Source of the DNA: Zelonia costaricensis
Lineage: Eukaryota; Euglenozoa; Kinetoplastea; Trypanosomatida; Trypanosomatidae
Direction of reading: 5' to 3'
Assembly (NCBI GenBank): GCA_030849075.1
Contig: JASAOO010003140.1
Span: forward strand, 1 to 24,738
Length of the DNA: 24,738 bases
The notes under the pieces were generated by a model, which made no database searches, had not been told where the DNA came from, and worked only from the letters and a program-made list of their open reading frames with translations. Both the position numbers and the translations under genes were made by a program. Below, in pieces: positions 15,199 to 23,550 of this stretch (position 1 is its first letter; each line of letters starts with the position of its first letter).

Positions 15199-16794
15199 TC
15201 ACACGATGCTGCTGAAGTCCGCTGTGGCGCCGTGCAGGGGGTCGTCCGCCGCGGCGAGGCTGCCCAGCAGCTCCTGCACCTTGTCGATTCCCGCGATGCG
15301 CAGCGAGCTCGTGAGTAGCATCTCCTTGCACTGCGTGTAGCGTACGAGCTGGCTGCGGGTGAAGTCGGTCAGCCGCGCGAGGTGGCGAATGGGCGCCGCG
15401 TCGGTCTTTGTGAGCACCACGCAAAATGGAATCTGGTACGTTTCCAGCAGGTCGCAGTAGGCATAGTCGAGGTGCTGCAGCCCCTGCGCCGAGGCACAGA
15501 GGAAGACGCGCTTCAAGTTGCGAGGCTGGTAGACCATGGGCGCACCGCCACTGCGGTCGTGAGGGTGGGTCGGTGCGCCAGCCTTGGCGCCCCCGTCCGC
15601 ACCGCGCATCCCCTCCCAGTCATCCGCGTCCTCGCTCCGCTTCGCCGCCGCGCTGCTGCCACTGCGGTGAGAGGGGTTCGATTCTGCATCAGCGGGGGCA
15701 CCGCCCGGCCCGCCCTCCGCGTGGCTGCGGTGGCCACGGTTCTGCTCGCTGTGCTGCAGGCGGCGGAGGGCAGCGGGGGCGGCACCGGTCCGCAAGTACG
15801 CCCGCATCGCGCGCACGGCGTTCTCGGCGTCGATGGGCGGAGTCATCATCGGGTCGTAGTGCCCGTAGCCGGGGCAGTCGACCAGCACAAGGCGGTGGGC
15901 CACGTCGTAGAAGCGGACCCCGCTGGTGGTGCCGCGCAGGTGACCGTACGGCGTGATCATCGCGTTCACGACGGCGTTCACCAGCGACGACTTCCCGCTC
16001 GAGGTGCGGCCAATAAAAGCCACCTCGGGCAGCAGGTCGTGCCGTGGGTGCAGCTGCGCGGTTGGCTTGGCCCGGTGCCGCGACGGCGACTTGCCTCGAC
16101 GATCATGCGTACCAGCCAACGAGGACGGCGAAGCGGCTGCCGCAGACGTCGCGCCACGCCGCAGGAGCAGGGGGAAGTGCTGCGGGTGTGTGGCGGAGCG
16201 GACCAGCTTGATGTCCCCACCAAACGCGAACGTCTGCTGTGCCTTCTGTGAGGTATTGAAGACCGGCGCGGTGCCGTCGCCCTTCGTGATCCAGTGCTCC
16301 CACGACACGCCCCGCTTGAGCTTTCGCTCGATGCGGCGACCGTGGAGGCCGAGGTAGATCTCCTGCAGAATCGCCCGGTCGAGTGGGCGTTGACGCAGCT
16401 GCTCGCGGAACGAGGTCGTGCTCGGCTGAAGCGTCTCGCGCACGGCCCCCTCCACCCCGAACTCCTCCACGAGTTTCTGCTGCTTGCGCAGGTGCGACTT
16501 GGAGGAGCGCCAGACCTGCTCCGCCGCGGCGGCGTTGCCGTCCCGGAAGGCGTCCACCTGCTGTGCCCGCCGCAGCTCCGCGGCACTCTCGCTGGGCAGG
16601 AGGGGCGCCACCCCGGCGTGAACGTGGCGGTGCGCCGCGTACTCGTGGGCGCCCGCGGCGGGCGAAGATCCTGCAGCGCCAACGTCGTCTCCCCCTGCGC
16701 CGCCACTGCCGAAGCTGGAGAGCGGGGGGATGATAATCTTGTGCCGCGAGCCCTGCAGAAGCAGACGGCGCGACGGCCGAAACAAGCCGCTCAT
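15199..16794 (-). CDS. EngB/YihA-type GTPase, probably mitochondrial
   Basis: A P-loop GTPase of 531 residues. G1 is GRTSSGKS (about 262-269). A T-T-S stretch provides G2. G3 is DCPGYG (about 305-310), close to the DLPGYG that marks the EngB/YihA family. G4 is TKTD (about 461-464), and TSS near 491 fits the SS-type G5. Bacterial EngB has about 200 residues and acts in large ribosomal subunit assembly. This protein adds roughly 250 N-terminal residues and an Ala/Gly/Ser/His-rich insert of about 80 residues (about 335-418) between G3 and G4. The N-terminus (MSGLFRPSRRLLLQGSRHK) is basic, hydrophobic and without acidic residues, as in a mitochondrial presequence, so a role in mitoribosome assembly is a reasonable inference. 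The ATG at 16794-16792 is the first in frame and is preceded by a pyrimidine tract. The GTPase class is secure; the exact substrate is not. Confidence 0.88.
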   Translation of the reverse strand: MSGLFRPSRRLLLQGSRHKIIIPPLSSFGSGGAGGDDVGAAGSSPAAGAHEYAAHRHVHAGVAPLLPSESAAELRRAQQVDAFRDGNAAAAEQVWRSSKSHLRKQQKLVEEFGVEGAVRETLQPSTTSFREQLRQRPLDRAILQEIYLGLHGRRIERKLKRGVSWEHWITKGDGTAPVFNTSQKAQQTFAFGGDIKLVRSATHPQHFPLLLRRGATSAAAASPSSLAGTHDRRGKSPSRHRAKPTAQLHPRHDLLPEVAFIGRTSSGKSSLVNAVVNAMITPYGHLRGTTSGVRFYDVAHRLVLVDCPGYGHYDPMMTPPIDAENAVRAMRAYLRTGAAPAALRRLQHSEQNRGHRSHAEGGPGGAPADAESNPSHRSGSSAAAKRSEDADDWEGMRGADGGAKAGAPTHPHDRSGGAPMVYQPRNLKRVFLCASAQGLQHLDYAYCDLLETYQIPFCVVLTKTDAAPIRHLARLTDFTRSQLVRYTQCKEMLLTSSLRIAGIDKVQELLGSLAAADDPLHGATADFSSIV

Positions 16795-17698: not shown

Positions 17699-17708
17699 TG
17701 TGTTTGTG

Positions 17709-17785
<77 letters not shown>

Positions 17786-17822
17786 CTGTGGGTCTGTGTG
17801 TGTGTGTTTGTGTGTGTGTGTG
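17699..17822. repeat. long TG microsatellite
   Basis: About 124 bases are almost wholly TG, with regular TTTG and occasional CTG/GGG interruptions. It is the longest simple repeat in the window. On the transcribed strand it is a CA repeat in the 3' flank of the 751-residue protein gene. Confidence 0.95.
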
Positions 17823-18131: not shown

Positions 18132-20387
18132 TCACCTCGCAGCGAAGGGAACACAGAGAAGGCGAAGGGCCTCGTCCGGGTTCGTCAGGCACTCCACGTT
18201 GAACCAGGAGCCATTCCAAAGGTAGCTCGGCAGCGGCTCGCCGGAGCTCCCCGTGAGGTGGCCCTCGGCGCTCCCGGAAATTTGCACCGTCGTCGTCGGC
18301 ATTTGCACTTCAACCGGCGCGGAGTTGACGTCCACGATGCCGCCGGCAGCAAGCACCTCGTCGGCGCGGTACCACAGCGAGCGCCCCTGCGTGTGGGTCG
18401 GCGACGCGTGCGTGGCAACGAAGCGGGCGACCGCCACTTCATCGAGCTCCGCCGCCTCGTCGCCGACAGCAGTCGCGCCGCCGCCGTCGCAGCTGCTGCT
18501 GTCGTCACTGCCAGTGCCACTCGAGGCATCGTCTGAGCCAGGGTTCTCAGGGAGCTCACACGCACCCGTGTGGGGTGCCCCGGCCTTTGCGTCTGCGGAC
18601 GGGGGAGTCTCGGTGTTGTGGTGCGCCGCCGTCGGCAGCAACGCCGCGGCCACCTCAGGGCGATCGAGAAGAAGACGCTCGTACGTCAGGGCTGCGTAAG
18701 GCAGCCGCCGTCCAGTCGCCCCCGCGAGTGGGATGCGGGGGCTTTCCAGTTCAGCCGACAGTACGTCAGACGGGACGAGGTAGCTGTCGGGGAAGTGAAC
18801 TTGTGAGATGTGGTACCAGTACTCCTTCTTGTGGCCCAGGTACGCGGCGTTGGTCGGTGCCTCACTCACGGGGTCGGCCAAGGGCCCTCCCAACCCGTCA
18901 GCGTGGTGTGCCGCGCTGCTGCCGTGATGGGATGCCACCCTGTCTTGGCCCAATCCGGACCATACGTCTCCATCGCCGGAGCGTGGGGAGACAGCGACGT
19001 CGCGACCTGCCGTCTGCAGTCCAGCGATGTCCTGCATGCTGCACACCCGCACCACCGCCCTCTTGGAGGGATGGAAGCCGACCGCGTCGGGACGGAGAGT
19101 CAGCCCCATGGCGTGCACTTGTCGCCCGGTGAAGAAGAGCGGCAGCTTCCACTTGTTCACCCTCATGTCCTCTTGAAGCAACTCATAGAAATCTTTTTCC
19201 GAACTCCCGTCGTACAACGCAGCAGCGTGCGATGGTGAAGCTCCCATAAAAGGCCTTTCAGAACCCGACGGCGCACCGTCCAGGGCTGTGGCAGCGGACG
19301 TCGCCGCGAAGTCCGAGGCTTCGAAGTGGTAACACAATTGTCGTCGTTTCGCCGAGATGCTGCACTTCTCCATCACAGCCGCCGCGTCGGCGAGGAGCGA
19401 GATGTGGACGAGCTTGGAGGTGACGAGCACGGGAATGACGTGCTCGTACTGACCAGGTTGGGAGATGGCGCCGGCGGCCAGCCACTGAGAGATTGTCCCC
19501 CACCACACAGACTCGTAGCCGTGCCTTTTGGCCAACGTTTGCAGGTCGAGCTGACGTGCTCCATTGAACGGGCGGCGCGACGCGACTGAGTACATCGTGC
19601 GCCCCTGTCGGAAGAGGTCAAGGCACTGTGAGGGATTCGGGAACCGCTGCTGCAGTTCGAGAACACTACCAGCCAAGGAAATCTCCGCCGACCACATCAG
19701 CGCCTTGGTGGGCCTCGACAGCGACAGGGAGGCGGAGGCTGCGGCGTGCAGCGGCGCGCCGCGCGAGACACTGAGTGCCGCGCGCGCCGTGTAGTTGGAC
19801 GGCGTGAAGTCCACGCTGTCCTCATTCTTTTCACCGGCACCGTCTAGGCTAAGGGCAGCTCCGATCGACGAGCTCCCGCGGTACCGCATCTGATCCATGT
19901 TGTAGAGATAGAGAGGCTTGGTCGCAGTCAGCGCGCAGATGGGAACCTCGTAGGCCGTGTTGTCTTCGCGTGTATCCGCTGCGCCCGTCGTGCGCTTTGC
20001 GATTGCAGCTGCCGAGGACCCCTGTGGGCGCCCACGGGGCCGCTTTGGCAGAGCTGCGGGGGCCTGCACGTCGTCGGCCACATGCCGATCCCCCTTTCGA
20101 GGGCGACCAAGCTGCCTGCCGTGTGCCGTGTGTGGTGAGCTCGCGAGCCCCTTGTGCGAGGCATAGCGAGACAAGGTCGGATGATGGGCGTAGGGGTCGA
20201 TGCGCAGCGGGCACGGAAGCCCACGTAGACGTGCCCTTGAGTTCACCCATTCAAAGTCGTTTTGATCGAGCCAGAGACACGACGACGAAAATGGGTTGGA
20301 CGGCAGAAATCGTTGCTGGGCAAAGCGCTGCAGTGCCGGAAACCCTTGCGTGAAGACGACCAGCCAGCGGCGACTGTGTGTGAGCAT
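18132..20387 (-). CDS. putative mitochondrial protein with degenerate head/tail repeats (larger paralogue)
   Basis: A protein of 751 residues from a family I do not recognise. The frame stays open upstream to a TTG at 20573, but the first ATG is 20387-20385. From there the N-terminus ([20 protein letters not shown]) is basic, hydrophobic and without acidic residues, as in a mitochondrial presequence. Two GRP cores (GRPRK at 94-98, RPRGRP at 116-121) resemble AT-hooks. Repeated aromatic/Thr 'heads' include CLWLDQNDF (37-45), VWWGTISQ (around 295), FFTGRQ (418-423), YWYHISQ (523-529) and LWYRADE (around 671). 'Tails' include YNMDQM (162-167) and the C-terminal [12 protein letters not shown] (from 729). 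The same motifs occur in the neighbouring 349-residue protein, with closely similar C-termini. Ser/Asp/Gly-rich linkers, notably before residue 671, separate the repeats. Function unknown; a mitochondrial RNA- or ribosome-related role is only a guess. Confidence 0.85.
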
Positions 20388-20474
20388 GAGACACGCGTGT
20401 GGGTCGGACGCGCGGACCTCGCGCAGCACATGTCCTCGTCTCTTCCCACGCTCCCTTCCCTCAGCTTGAGGGAG

Positions 20475-20520
20475 CTGATGTGTGAGCAAGGTACGTTGCG
20501 GAGGAGGGGTGCGAGGGGAC
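20475..20520 (-). promoter_or_regulatory. candidate spliced-leader acceptor for the 751-residue protein gene
   Basis: On the minus strand a C/T-rich tract (20520-20502) is followed by the first good AG at 20476-20475, about 88 bases before the ATG at 20387. If used, it would exclude the upstream TTG extension from the mRNA. The tract is weaker than those of the other genes. Confidence 0.3.
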
Positions 20521-20655
20521 TGGCTCCCACTGAGTCGTGAGAAGCGTGGCGTGTGCACTGGAGGGCCGCGCAACTGGATGCGCAGCTCCCTCCTTCCGCC
20601 TTCTGGTTCGCGTAGCCGTAGCCCGCGCGGTCTCAGCGCCGAGAGCGGTGGTCAG

Positions 20656-20685
20656 ATGTGTGTGTGTGTGTGTGTTTGTGTGTCT
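20656..20685. repeat. TG microsatellite
   Basis: A short TG run with one TTTG interruption, upstream of the 751-residue protein gene. Confidence 0.85.
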
Positions 20686-20740
20686 CTGAGGAGCGTCAAG
20701 AGCGCGTCGTGGTGAATGCAGGACGAAGACGCAGAATGGA

Positions 20741-20762
20741 GACTCTGGAGAGTCGCGACTCT
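20741..20762. repeat. three-copy hexamer: inverted plus direct repeat
   Basis: GACTCT occurs at 20741-20746, its reverse complement AGAGTC at 20749-20754, and GACTCT again at 20757-20762, with two-base spacers. The arrangement (copy, inverted copy, copy) matches the octamer cluster upstream of the calcium channel gene, and both units begin GACTC. Confidence 0.8.
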
Positions 20763-21174
20763 GCGAGCCGCAGTGCCCAGCTGACGTCTGTGGTACAAGG
20801 TCCGATGTGGACTTCTTTCCGTGAAGGTTTATGTGCGTGTGTATTGTTGTTGTTGGGGGGTGGTGTGGGGCAAAAGGGGCGTGCGGCGCGAGCTCATACG
20901 CACGCTGCGCGACGTCTTCGCGACGTGTTGAGGGGACGGGACGGGGGGGGGGGCGTGCTTGTGAATTGTTTTTTGGGGGTAAGCCAGTCGTAAGACGAAC
21001 ATGTTACGACGAGTTTCGGTGTGTGTTGTCAGCAAATAGGCAAGTCCTAAAGATTTCATGGGCTGGCGCCTCCAGTTCTTTTGCGGATCTCAGAGAATGA
21101 GGCGAAGGCCCAGAAAGAACCTGACCCTGTCCTTAACCTCCGCTTCATGAACGGCAGGCAACAAATGACGCGAT

Positions 21175-21442
21175 CGCACCCGCCGGGTGACGCTGCGGCA
21201 AGCTGCGCACGCGAAGCGACAGGGCTCGATCCCGGTCCCAGCCCGCCTACAAAGCGCCTGGCACAGTAGCAGAACCAAAGCCAGCAGACTCACGCTGGCG
21301 CAGCTGCTCCGCCCCTCGCCGCGCAGGGGCTGCCTCTCCTTCATGCGCGCCGTGCGAGACACACGCGTGCCCTCGATACCTGCACGCAAGCACGAACACG
21401 CGCCGAGTCAATAAGGCGCGCGTATCGCCCTTTTTTTTTTTT
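21175..21442 (+). other. tRNA-like, possibly Pol III-type or SINE-derived stretch
   Basis: On the plus strand, antisense to the genes, an A-box-like TGACGCTGCGG (21188-21198) is followed 24 bases later by a B-box-like GGCTCGATCCC (21223-21233; 9 of 11 positions fit GGTTCGANTCC). No run of four or more T occurs after it until a 12-base T run at 21431-21442, which could end a Pol III transcript. Nearby are two perfect small hairpins (CACCC/GGGTG at 21177-21189; GCCCCT/AGGGGC at 21311-21330). The T-arm does not pair well and the box spacing is short, so this is not a tRNA. A decayed tRNA-derived retroposon (trypanosomatids carry SIDER elements in UTRs) or chance are the alternatives. Confidence 0.25.
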
Positions 21443-22285
21443 CGGTTTTCCGCTGTGCCTTCGCTTCGCCTTTTTTTCTTGTTTTTTGGTTCGCTTTGAC
21501 GTGTTGTCAGTTGCGTTGTGCGTACACACGCACACAGACACAGACCCAAACATGGGTCTGACAGGAACGGAGAAGACAGCCGTTAACGCCGCGCGCGCTC
21601 TTACGCAGGGGAGCCCCACCTACACACAGACACCTACTCGCACACGCAATCAATCAGTCACGCAAACCGTCCATCACACGCACGCCAACAAAAAAAAAAA
21701 AAGAACAAGAAACTCAAGCGGTCATCTACCCGACAGAACAGGCGAACAGCATGAATCAAACAGCCCCCCACACACACTTGCGCGCACGCCAGCGGCATCA
21801 AAAGAAAAAACACAAAAACGCTTCTCGTTCTTCTCGCAGTCAACAAGGCACTGCGCGCTTTCTTGTTTCTTTTTCGTACTACACGCTCGGCACATCGGCG
21901 GGCTTCTCTGCCGACACCGCGCAAACTCTATGATGGTCCACAGCAACAGCAGTAGCAGCAGCGAACACCGGTGCTGCCACCTCGCTGACCCAGCACGCCC
22001 TTCCATGGAACTCCTTGTACGCTTCAAAGGGGAAGGACGGTGCGAACCTTGAAGGGAGGCAAAGTTAAAAAAAAAAAAAGAAAATAGCGTGTGGCCCCCC
22101 CTCCGGAAGGCAGAGACAGCAAGCCACAAGCGCACACGCAACGTAAGACTCTTCTATGAAAGAAACAAAACTGGGTCCTTGCGTGACTGACCTTGCACAC
22201 CCATACCCACTTCTGCCGCCTACTCGACAGCGCCCTCTCGCTTTCTTCTCACTTCTCGAGTGTCTCGGTCACTCTCCGCGCACCG

Positions 22286-22302
22286 GCACACACACACACA
22301 CA
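22286..22302. repeat. CA microsatellite
   Basis: A short CA run on the plus strand in the 3' flank of the 349-residue protein gene. Its orientation is opposite to the TG repeats of the other spacers. Confidence 0.8.
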
Positions 22303-22500
22303 GGCACGCACGGACAGGGACACGATTAGGCGCGCGCACGTCTGCCCCCTTCACGGGTCCCAGACGGGCATCGCCGCAGACAGCAAGCGAGAAAAGGAAA
22401 AAAAAAAGCGGGCGAAGAGCGACCTCAGCAGCGCGCGACAAGTCGGACGCTCGATGAGACTCGGCTGCTCTTCTTGTTGGTTTGTTTGTTTGTTTTTGCT

Positions 22501-23550
22501 TTACTGCACGAAAAGGCCGGCACGCGCGAAGGCCTCGTCGGGGTTCGACAGCTGCTCCACGTTGAACATCTCGTACTGCACCGGGGCCGAGTTGCCGCTG
22601 CTGAAGGGGACGCCGCGGCGCTTCTCGCTGTCCTTGATGGGCCACTGGTAGAGCTCCGCATCGCGGCCCGTCAGCCAGTAGTTGCTGCGGAAGGTCTTGG
22701 GGAACTTCTTGCTCGCCTCGGACATGATCGGCTCACCCGACAGCAGGAAGGTCGGCACGTTCACCGGCGCGCGCTGCAGCGTCTTCAGGGCGAGGTGAGG
22801 GTCCTCCAGCTGGTCCACGTTGTAGATGACGTGGCGGTCGCCCGACGAGGCCTCCTGCACTACCGGGATCTGGTCCGGCAGCGGGGAGAGCTTGAAGAAC
22901 TCGAGCTGGCGCCGCGTGAAGTACAGACCGCTGTTGAAGTCGTTCGACTTGATGTGGTCTTGCAGAACTTGGAAGATGTCGCCCCGCTTGCTGTACAGCC
23001 GGCGGCTGCCACCGCTGACCGGGTACTGCTGCAGCGCTTCGCCGCCGCTCAGCTGGCTGCTGTGGAACAGCTTGATCTGCGACTTGGTGAGGATGATGCA
23101 GGAGCGGGTGTTGGCTTTAAACTGCAGGTTCTCCTTGTGGGCCTGGCTCCGGGTGATCCACCACTTGCTGAGGTAGCTGTGGCGCTGGGCGCGGTCGTTC
23201 AGCTCGAACTGCAGCCGCTCGCCGTACACCTTACGGCTGCTGTAGCTGCTGTGTTTCGGTGCCTCCATCACCTCCGGCGGGGAGAGGAGCTGGTCGAAGT
23301 TGTACAGCTCCAGCTGCTTGTCCACAAGGAGCGGCGTCGGCAGCGCGCCGGGCTCCGGCTTCATGCCGAGCCGCTCGACCTCCCAGTCCTCAATCCAGAC
23401 GTTGCTCGGGCTGTTGCGCGCCTTCTGGTTGCTCTCGAGAATGTGGTGCTGCTGGCTAAACACCACAATCGTGCGAGCGGCGGCGGCGACGGCGGCGGAC
23501 ACCGCCGTCGCACGGGGCACGACGGCAGACGACGTGAGTCGGCGGAACAT
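22501..23550 (-). CDS. putative mitochondrial protein with degenerate head/tail repeats (smaller paralogue)
   Basis: A protein of 349 residues from a family I do not recognise. The frame is open upstream to a TTG at 23796, but the first ATG is 23550-23548. The N-terminus from that ATG (MFRRLTSSAVVPRATAVSAA) is a good mitochondrial presequence. The body is repetitive. 'Heads' lie at VWIEDWE (51-57), WWITRSQ (130-136), IILTKSQIKLF (152-162), YFTRRQLEFF (210-219), possibly FLLSGEP (268-274), and YWLTGRDAEL (291-300). 'Tails' lie at LYNFDQLLSPPEV (82-94), IYNVDQLEDPHLAL (242-255) and the C-terminal FNVEQLSNPDEAF (329-341). The 751-residue neighbour shares the head motif, the tail motif and the same C-terminal ending, so the two are probably an old tandem duplication. 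The repeats suggest a small domain used several times. No catalytic motif is visible, and no function is assigned. Confidence 0.88.
   Translation of the reverse strand: MFRRLTSSAVVPRATAVSAAVAAAARTIVVFSQQHHILESNQKARNSPSNVWIEDWEVERLGMKPEPGALPTPLLVDKQLELYNFDQLLSPPEVMEAPKHSSYSSRKVYGERLQFELNDRAQRHSYLSKWWITRSQAHKENLQFKANTRSCIILTKSQIKLFHSSQLSGGEALQQYPVSGGSRRLYSKRGDIFQVLQDHIKSNDFNSGLYFTRRQLEFFKLSPLPDQIPVVQEASSGDRHVIYNVDQLEDPHLALKTLQRAPVNVPTFLLSGEPIMSEASKKFPKTFRSNYWLTGRDAELYQWPIKDSEKRRGVPFSSGNSAPVQYEMFNVEQLSNPDEAFARAGLFVQ

Follow-up and report, generated by a model that had tools for sequence, protein, structure and literature searches.

The 24,738-nucleotide contig JASAOO010003140.1 of Zelonia costaricensis (assembly GCA_030849075.1), referred to in full as the window, carries on its minus strand two genes 2.1 kb apart. 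They very probably encode p38/Tc38/RBP38, a mitochondrial protein of kinetoplastids, and its tandem paralogue, both composed of four ArdC-N units and both with proposed roles in binding kinetoplast DNA (kDNA). The protein of 349 amino acids (aa) is called p38 here and the 751-aa paralogue L (Table 1). An earlier note on this DNA had correctly reported two neighbouring open frames of these lengths, and had described their products as built from a module without a recognisable name. That module is the Tc-38/ArdC-N domain, which is found in Pfam and is described in print (PMC5512222, PMC7213743, PMC10719067).

Family membership and the four repeat units

Both proteins belong to the Tc-38 family (PF20054, the trypanosomatid p38 family), with 113.3 bits for p38 and 32.1 bits for L against a curated cut-off of 23.2. 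For the ArdcN family (PF08401, cut-off 22.6), whole p38 scored above the cut-off with 23.9 bits and whole L below it with 21.2, and a search of the six-frame genome with ArdC-N gave one match, L unit 2 (23.6 bits), p38 being unlisted. Tc-38 and ArdcN were both matched at E<=0.01 by all 24 aligned p38 sequences and all 15 aligned L sequences. The database search found 26 relatives of p38, 24 of them with 61-98% identity over 89-100% of the length and two with 41-43% over 99%; at 100% coverage, identity was 69% in Trypanosoma equiperdum, 72% in Strigomonas culicis and 87% in L. braziliensis. Named proteins from Leishmania, Porcisia, Strigomonas, Angomonas, Phytomonas and four Trypanosoma species are among them. 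Judged from these sequence matches, the 349-aa protein is a full-length p38/RBP38 orthologue.

For L, 14 relatives were found, 11 of which carry an organism name (Leishmania, Porcisia, Leptomonas, Novymonas, all of which we take to be Leishmaniinae) and 3 of which are unnamed; a second search, profile-based and run with the L alignment, recovered these 14 and no others. None of the 14 is from Trypanosoma, in a search whose sensitivity is bound by shared exact words, length and the number of candidates scored, so that absence from that genus is not implied. L orthologues are named in the database as hypothetical or Tc-38-domain proteins, and the Leptomonas one as 'putative mitochondrial hypothetical protein'. 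No family of PHROGs or NCBIfam was matched by p38 or L at E<=1, nor was any peptidase, transglutaminase-like or BHD1-3 family of Pfam at the same threshold.

The units were cut by their head and tail motifs, four per protein, and unit profiles were compared with hhalign against 60 column shuffles per pair. Four heads and four tails are present in p38, at residues 49/83, 128/162, 207/243 and 289/329, and L has four units in the order of p38, with motifs decayed in some; the earlier counts of five to six heads and three tails in the smaller protein, and at least five heads in the larger, have to be revised to these. The motifs quoted at that time do occur. The pattern [YF][NH]xxQ[LIVM] of the tail, or squiggle, appears four times in p38 (shuffle mean 0.032) and twice in L (shuffle mean 0.021), and 0 of 2000 shuffles reached as many in either protein. 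Regular expressions for the head were weak in both: in p38 only units 3 and 4 were caught, each twice, and a looser expression gave three matches in L (two being one head and one no head), a number reached by 19 of 2000 shuffles. The case for the heads thus rests on the profile comparisons. Internal repetition, as had been proposed for both proteins, is significant in p38, where five of six unit pairs scored above 60/60 shuffles and units 1-2 above 58/60, and is not significant in L alone, where 10-55 of 60 shuffles reached the observed score in each of the 6 unit pairs.

Conservation follows the same units. Many residues of p38 are invariant and are spread over all four units; the squiggle N (H in unit 2) is kept in 24/24 sequences at every unit, and the squiggle Q in 21, 24, 24 and 23 (one gap) for units 1 to 4. 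Among the 15 L sequences, N and Q of unit 1 and H and Q of unit 3 are present in all, and the Q of units 2 and 4 is absent from all. The predicted model of p38 appears to have an ArdC-like fold, the units within it being set against each other by the order of their secondary-structure elements, and the quality of the AlphaFold model of L does not allow its units to be superposed. Head motif (KGYRSAYWFTYRQAKELG in ArdC) and the FNxDQ-like squiggle between the last strands, and apparently also the model fold, are alike in p38 and the N-terminal domain of R388 ArdC (PDB 6I89/6SNA). ArdC itself has one ArdC-N unit followed by a C-terminal metalloprotease domain (PMC7213743), whereas p38 and L have four units and no protease family detected with Pfam. 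The BHD1-3 domains of XPC/Rad4 have been unified with ArdC-N and the Tc38 family (PMC5512222). In Rad4, three tandem BHD domains form a DNA-binding surface, to which the tandem units of p38 and L may be likened; Rad4 also has a transglutaminase-fold domain (PMC7213743). Rad4 was not among the structure matches listed (Foldseek, VIA), which is no evidence against kinship.

A mitoribosomal, RNA-editing or other solved complex was also considered as a home for the two proteins and was rejected, the best PDB sequence matches being at noise level (E 0.58 for p38, E 1.4 for L) and the p38 profile matching nothing in PDB at E<=10.

The frame listed for L has 813 aa and opens at a TTG. ATG 20387 was taken as the start because it matches the start in 12 of the 15 aligned sequences, that of the window counted among them; three database entries in this alignment have longer N-termini. 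Judged by eye rather than with a targeting predictor, the N-terminus of p38 is presequence-like, as had been suggested for both proteins, and in L only 9 residues precede the conserved VVF. The C-terminal motif that the earlier note saw in both proteins is indeed common to them.

Table 1. Genes, repeat units and AT-hook core of the p38-L pair, and Tc-38 open frames on other contigs of the genome
Feature	Positions	Strand	Extent	Remarks
p38/Tc38/RBP38 gene	22501..23550	-	349 aa	ATG 23550, stop 22501-22503; Pfam Tc-38 4.2e-33 and ArdcN 5e-05, both above curated cut-off; several named orthologues 'mitochondrial RNA binding protein'
p38 unit 1	23263..23472	-	aa 27-96	head SNVWIEDWE, squiggle YNFDQL
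p38 unit 2	23032..23247	-	aa 102-173	head SKWWITRSQA, squiggle FHSSQL; Pfam ArdcN at aa 102-159
p38 unit 3	22783..23016	-	aa 179-256	head SGLYFTRRQL, squiggle YNVDQL
p38 unit 4	22522..22767	-	aa 262-343	head SNYWLTGRDAEL, squiggle FNVEQL
L gene, Tc-38 family	18132..20387	-	751 aa	ATG 20387, stop 18132-18134; Pfam Tc-38 above cut-off; 14 database relatives
L unit 1	19872..20375	-	aa 5-172	split by long insert; squiggle YNMDQM; hhalign to p38 unit 1 E 6.8e-05, only 17 tail columns
AT-hook core KRPRGRPQG	20019..20045	-	aa 115-123 of L	within unit 1 insert; R118, G119, R120 conserved
L unit 2	19362..19664	-	aa 242-342	squiggle Q replaced (VHISLL); hhalign to p38 unit 2 E 1.3e-13
L unit 3	18768..19361	-	aa 343-540	tail YHISQV, long variable insert; hhalign to p38 unit 3 E 1.1e-06
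L unit 4	18156..18767	-	aa 541-744	tail FNVECL, variable inserts; hhalign to p38 unit 4 E 7.3e-06
L012, contig C736			818 aa	Tc-38 cut-off passed
L013, contig C506			309 aa	Tc-38 cut-off passed
L014, contig C490			588 aa	Tc-38 cut-off passed
L015, contig C742	1802-3640		612 aa	Tc-38 cut-off passed
L016, contig C619			315 aa	Tc-38 cut-off passed
L017, contig C384			383 aa	Tc-38 cut-off passed

The AT-hook core of L and proposed action on kDNA

An AT-hook core, which the earlier note does not mention, lies in the insert of L unit 1 (aa 77-145). This insert is nearly devoid of conservation, R118, G119 and R120 being the only residues at 90% among the 15 sequences. RGRP occurs in this insert in 11 of 15 L sequences (0.08 expected when each insert is shuffled) and in 0 of 24 p38 sequences; it is altered in the other four L sequences, to RGRS twice, KGRQ and RRKP. 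Since the L sequences are related, the shuffle expectation serves as a yardstick only, and conservation of the hook is better argued by contrast with the three inserts in L units 3 and 4, which have 0/83, 0/62 and 0/33 columns at 90% conservation. By eye, Ser, Gly, Ala and acidic residues abound in these three inserts. As a sequence motif, KRPRGRPQG fits AT-hook proteins, with their RGR(P) core and basic or proline flanks, and is present in L only; the top PDB sequence match of L, HMG-I/Y, runs through the hook and is non-significant. This core points to DNA. The kDNA of T. brucei is reported to be more than 70% AT (PMC5737332), and some homologues of TAC53, a protein linked to kDNA, are described as carrying AT-hooks (PMC12453217).

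Published work on p38 concerns kDNA. RBP38 is reported to have an ArdC-type domain and to bind the universal minicircle sequence and the hexamer on their template strands; its location at the antipodal sites was called surprising there, initiation being thought to occur elsewhere (PMC10719067). The antipodal location is also given in PMC6529878, with the identifiers Tb927.8.2740 (T. brucei) and LmxM.23.0760 (L. mexicana). The T. cruzi protein Tc38 is described as essentially mitochondrial, as binding [dT-dG]-rich single strands and as moving around kDNA with the cell cycle, an earlier proposal having been that it is an RNA-stability factor (PMC2654453). ArdC is reported to prefer single-stranded over double-stranded DNA (PMC7213743).

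Taken together, exposed kDNA single strands (minicircle replication origins, the G/T-rich strand) would most likely be held by the four beta-hairpin modules of p38 in replication and maintenance. By its kinship and its AT-hook, L would most likely be an auxiliary of p38 specific to its lineage, binding AT-rich duplex as well as single-stranded DNA in the kinetoplast. We also consider it possible, if rather doubtful, that L is a kDNA factor specific to Leishmaniinae, whose ArdC-N array and AT-hook could let it link melted origins to the double-stranded network of minicircles or maxicircles, its fast evolution being co-evolution with lineage-specific kDNA.

An alternative is that mitochondrial RNA is the main target of the four-unit proteins, which would serve its stability or its processing in line with the name RBP38, DNA binding being secondary. 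We think this unlikely: the RNA-binding names of several p38 relatives speak for it, but RBP38 binds origin template strands, the AT-hook core of L points to DNA, and the substrate preference of ArdC is for single-stranded DNA, RNA not appearing among the substrates in the parts of PMC7213743 drawn on here. It is more improbable still that L binds single strands in the nucleus or at telomeres and has its AT-hook for nuclear DNA, as the short extension ahead of its conserved core might suggest. The mitochondrial location of Tc38, the database name of the Leptomonas orthologue and the presence of AT-hooks in homologues of TAC53 argue against it.

If L acts at the kinetoplast as proposed, it could help to account for the differences in kDNA factors between trypanosomes and the relatives of Leishmania. 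The module, its origin and p38 were already known, as the account of ArdC-N acquisition in PMC5512222 makes clear, and L appears to be a new member of the Tc-38 family; the literature search gave no title about L, subscription papers being mostly outside its coverage. A repeat that seemed anonymous would thus be tied to the recruitment of a plasmid antirestriction DNA-binding domain into kinetoplastid mitochondrial DNA maintenance, and L, as the fast-evolving partner of p38 in tandem with an AT-hook core, becomes a candidate lineage-specific kDNA-binding protein.

Origin of the pair

According to PMC5512222, eukaryotes acquired ArdC-N twice, in XPC/Rad4 and in the Tc38 family, and the latter was taken into the kinetoplast minicircle replication system. 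For the pair in the window, the best p38 partner of an L unit is in all four cases the unit of the same number, and each of these diagonal matches scored above 60/60 shuffles. Among the off-diagonal unit pairs, 4 of 12 also exceeded all shuffles, the best being p38 unit 3 with L unit 4 (E 5.5e-05), as is expected if all units have a common ancestor. Comparison of the whole profiles aligned units 2-3 of p38 (101-234) with units 2-3 of L (266-442). Whole L against the single p38 sequence gave E 4.1e-08, the best among the seven family members of the genome that were compared. In Porcisia the locus tags of p38 and L follow one another directly (JKF63_04849, JKF63_04850), and the longest contigs listed for p38 and for L are equal-sized in this genus as well as in L. 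tarentolae and L. braziliensis, which is consistent with one chromosome. Identity of L and p38 to the same species was 39% vs 83% in Porcisia, 38% vs 86% in L. tarentolae and 39% vs 87% in L. braziliensis, L being far more divergent; p38 would have stayed under strong constraint.

The simplest history is likely to be a single amplification to four units, followed by duplication of the whole gene and fast divergence of L. This agrees with the earlier proposal of paralogues arising from an amplified module and whole-gene duplication, and departs from it in placing one amplification before the duplication instead of amplification within each protein. In an ancestor of kinetoplastids, a plasmid-type ArdC-N domain binding single-stranded DNA would have multiplied into four units, and the four-unit gene would then have been duplicated in tandem, the copy being seen so far in Leishmaniinae. 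L, with the same family and unit order as p38 and twice its length, would have diverged fast, stretching linkers inside its units, losing part of the squiggle from its second and fourth units and gaining the AT-hook in unit 1.

Two observations make this explanation slightly less certain. Searched directly with the p38 sequence, the genome yielded p38 alone and not L, so that only profiles reveal that the two are related. Moreover, an invariant H stands in unit 2 of p38 (24/24) and of L (15/15), where p38 units 1, 3 and 4 have N, and it is weak support for the pairing since L unit 3 also has H.

Six further Tc-38 open frames lie on other contigs, which brings the genome total to at least eight with p38 and L; they are farther from p38 than L is. 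A stretch of the 612-aa member resembles L unit 2 (hhalign E 1.7e-06), which hints at a closer kinship of the two branches, and this member is also the best match of whole L among the six (E 1.2e-05). L could then derive from another family member, later placed beside p38, with no tandem duplication. We hold this to be quite improbable, given the better match of whole L to p38, the collinear units and the neighbouring positions of the genes here and in Porcisia. Chance likeness of low-complexity or biased sequence, to which the weak head expressions and the lack of significant repeats within L might lend themselves, is refuted for p38 and is next to impossible for the pair given the four diagonal matches of L.

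Neighbouring features of the window

Between L and the next gene on the same strand, a long GT/TG simple repeat extends over 17700-17820. That gene (15199-16794) encodes a 531-aa GTPase with an N-terminal extension (Pfam MMR_HSR1, 5.3e-10), which we presume may be a ribosome-assembly GTPase of the EngB/YihA type. A minus-strand frame of 4111 aa at 1521-13856 matches Pfam Ins145_P3_rec, RYDR_ITPR, RIH_assoc and Ion_trans, and corresponds to an IP3/ryanodine-receptor-like calcium channel.

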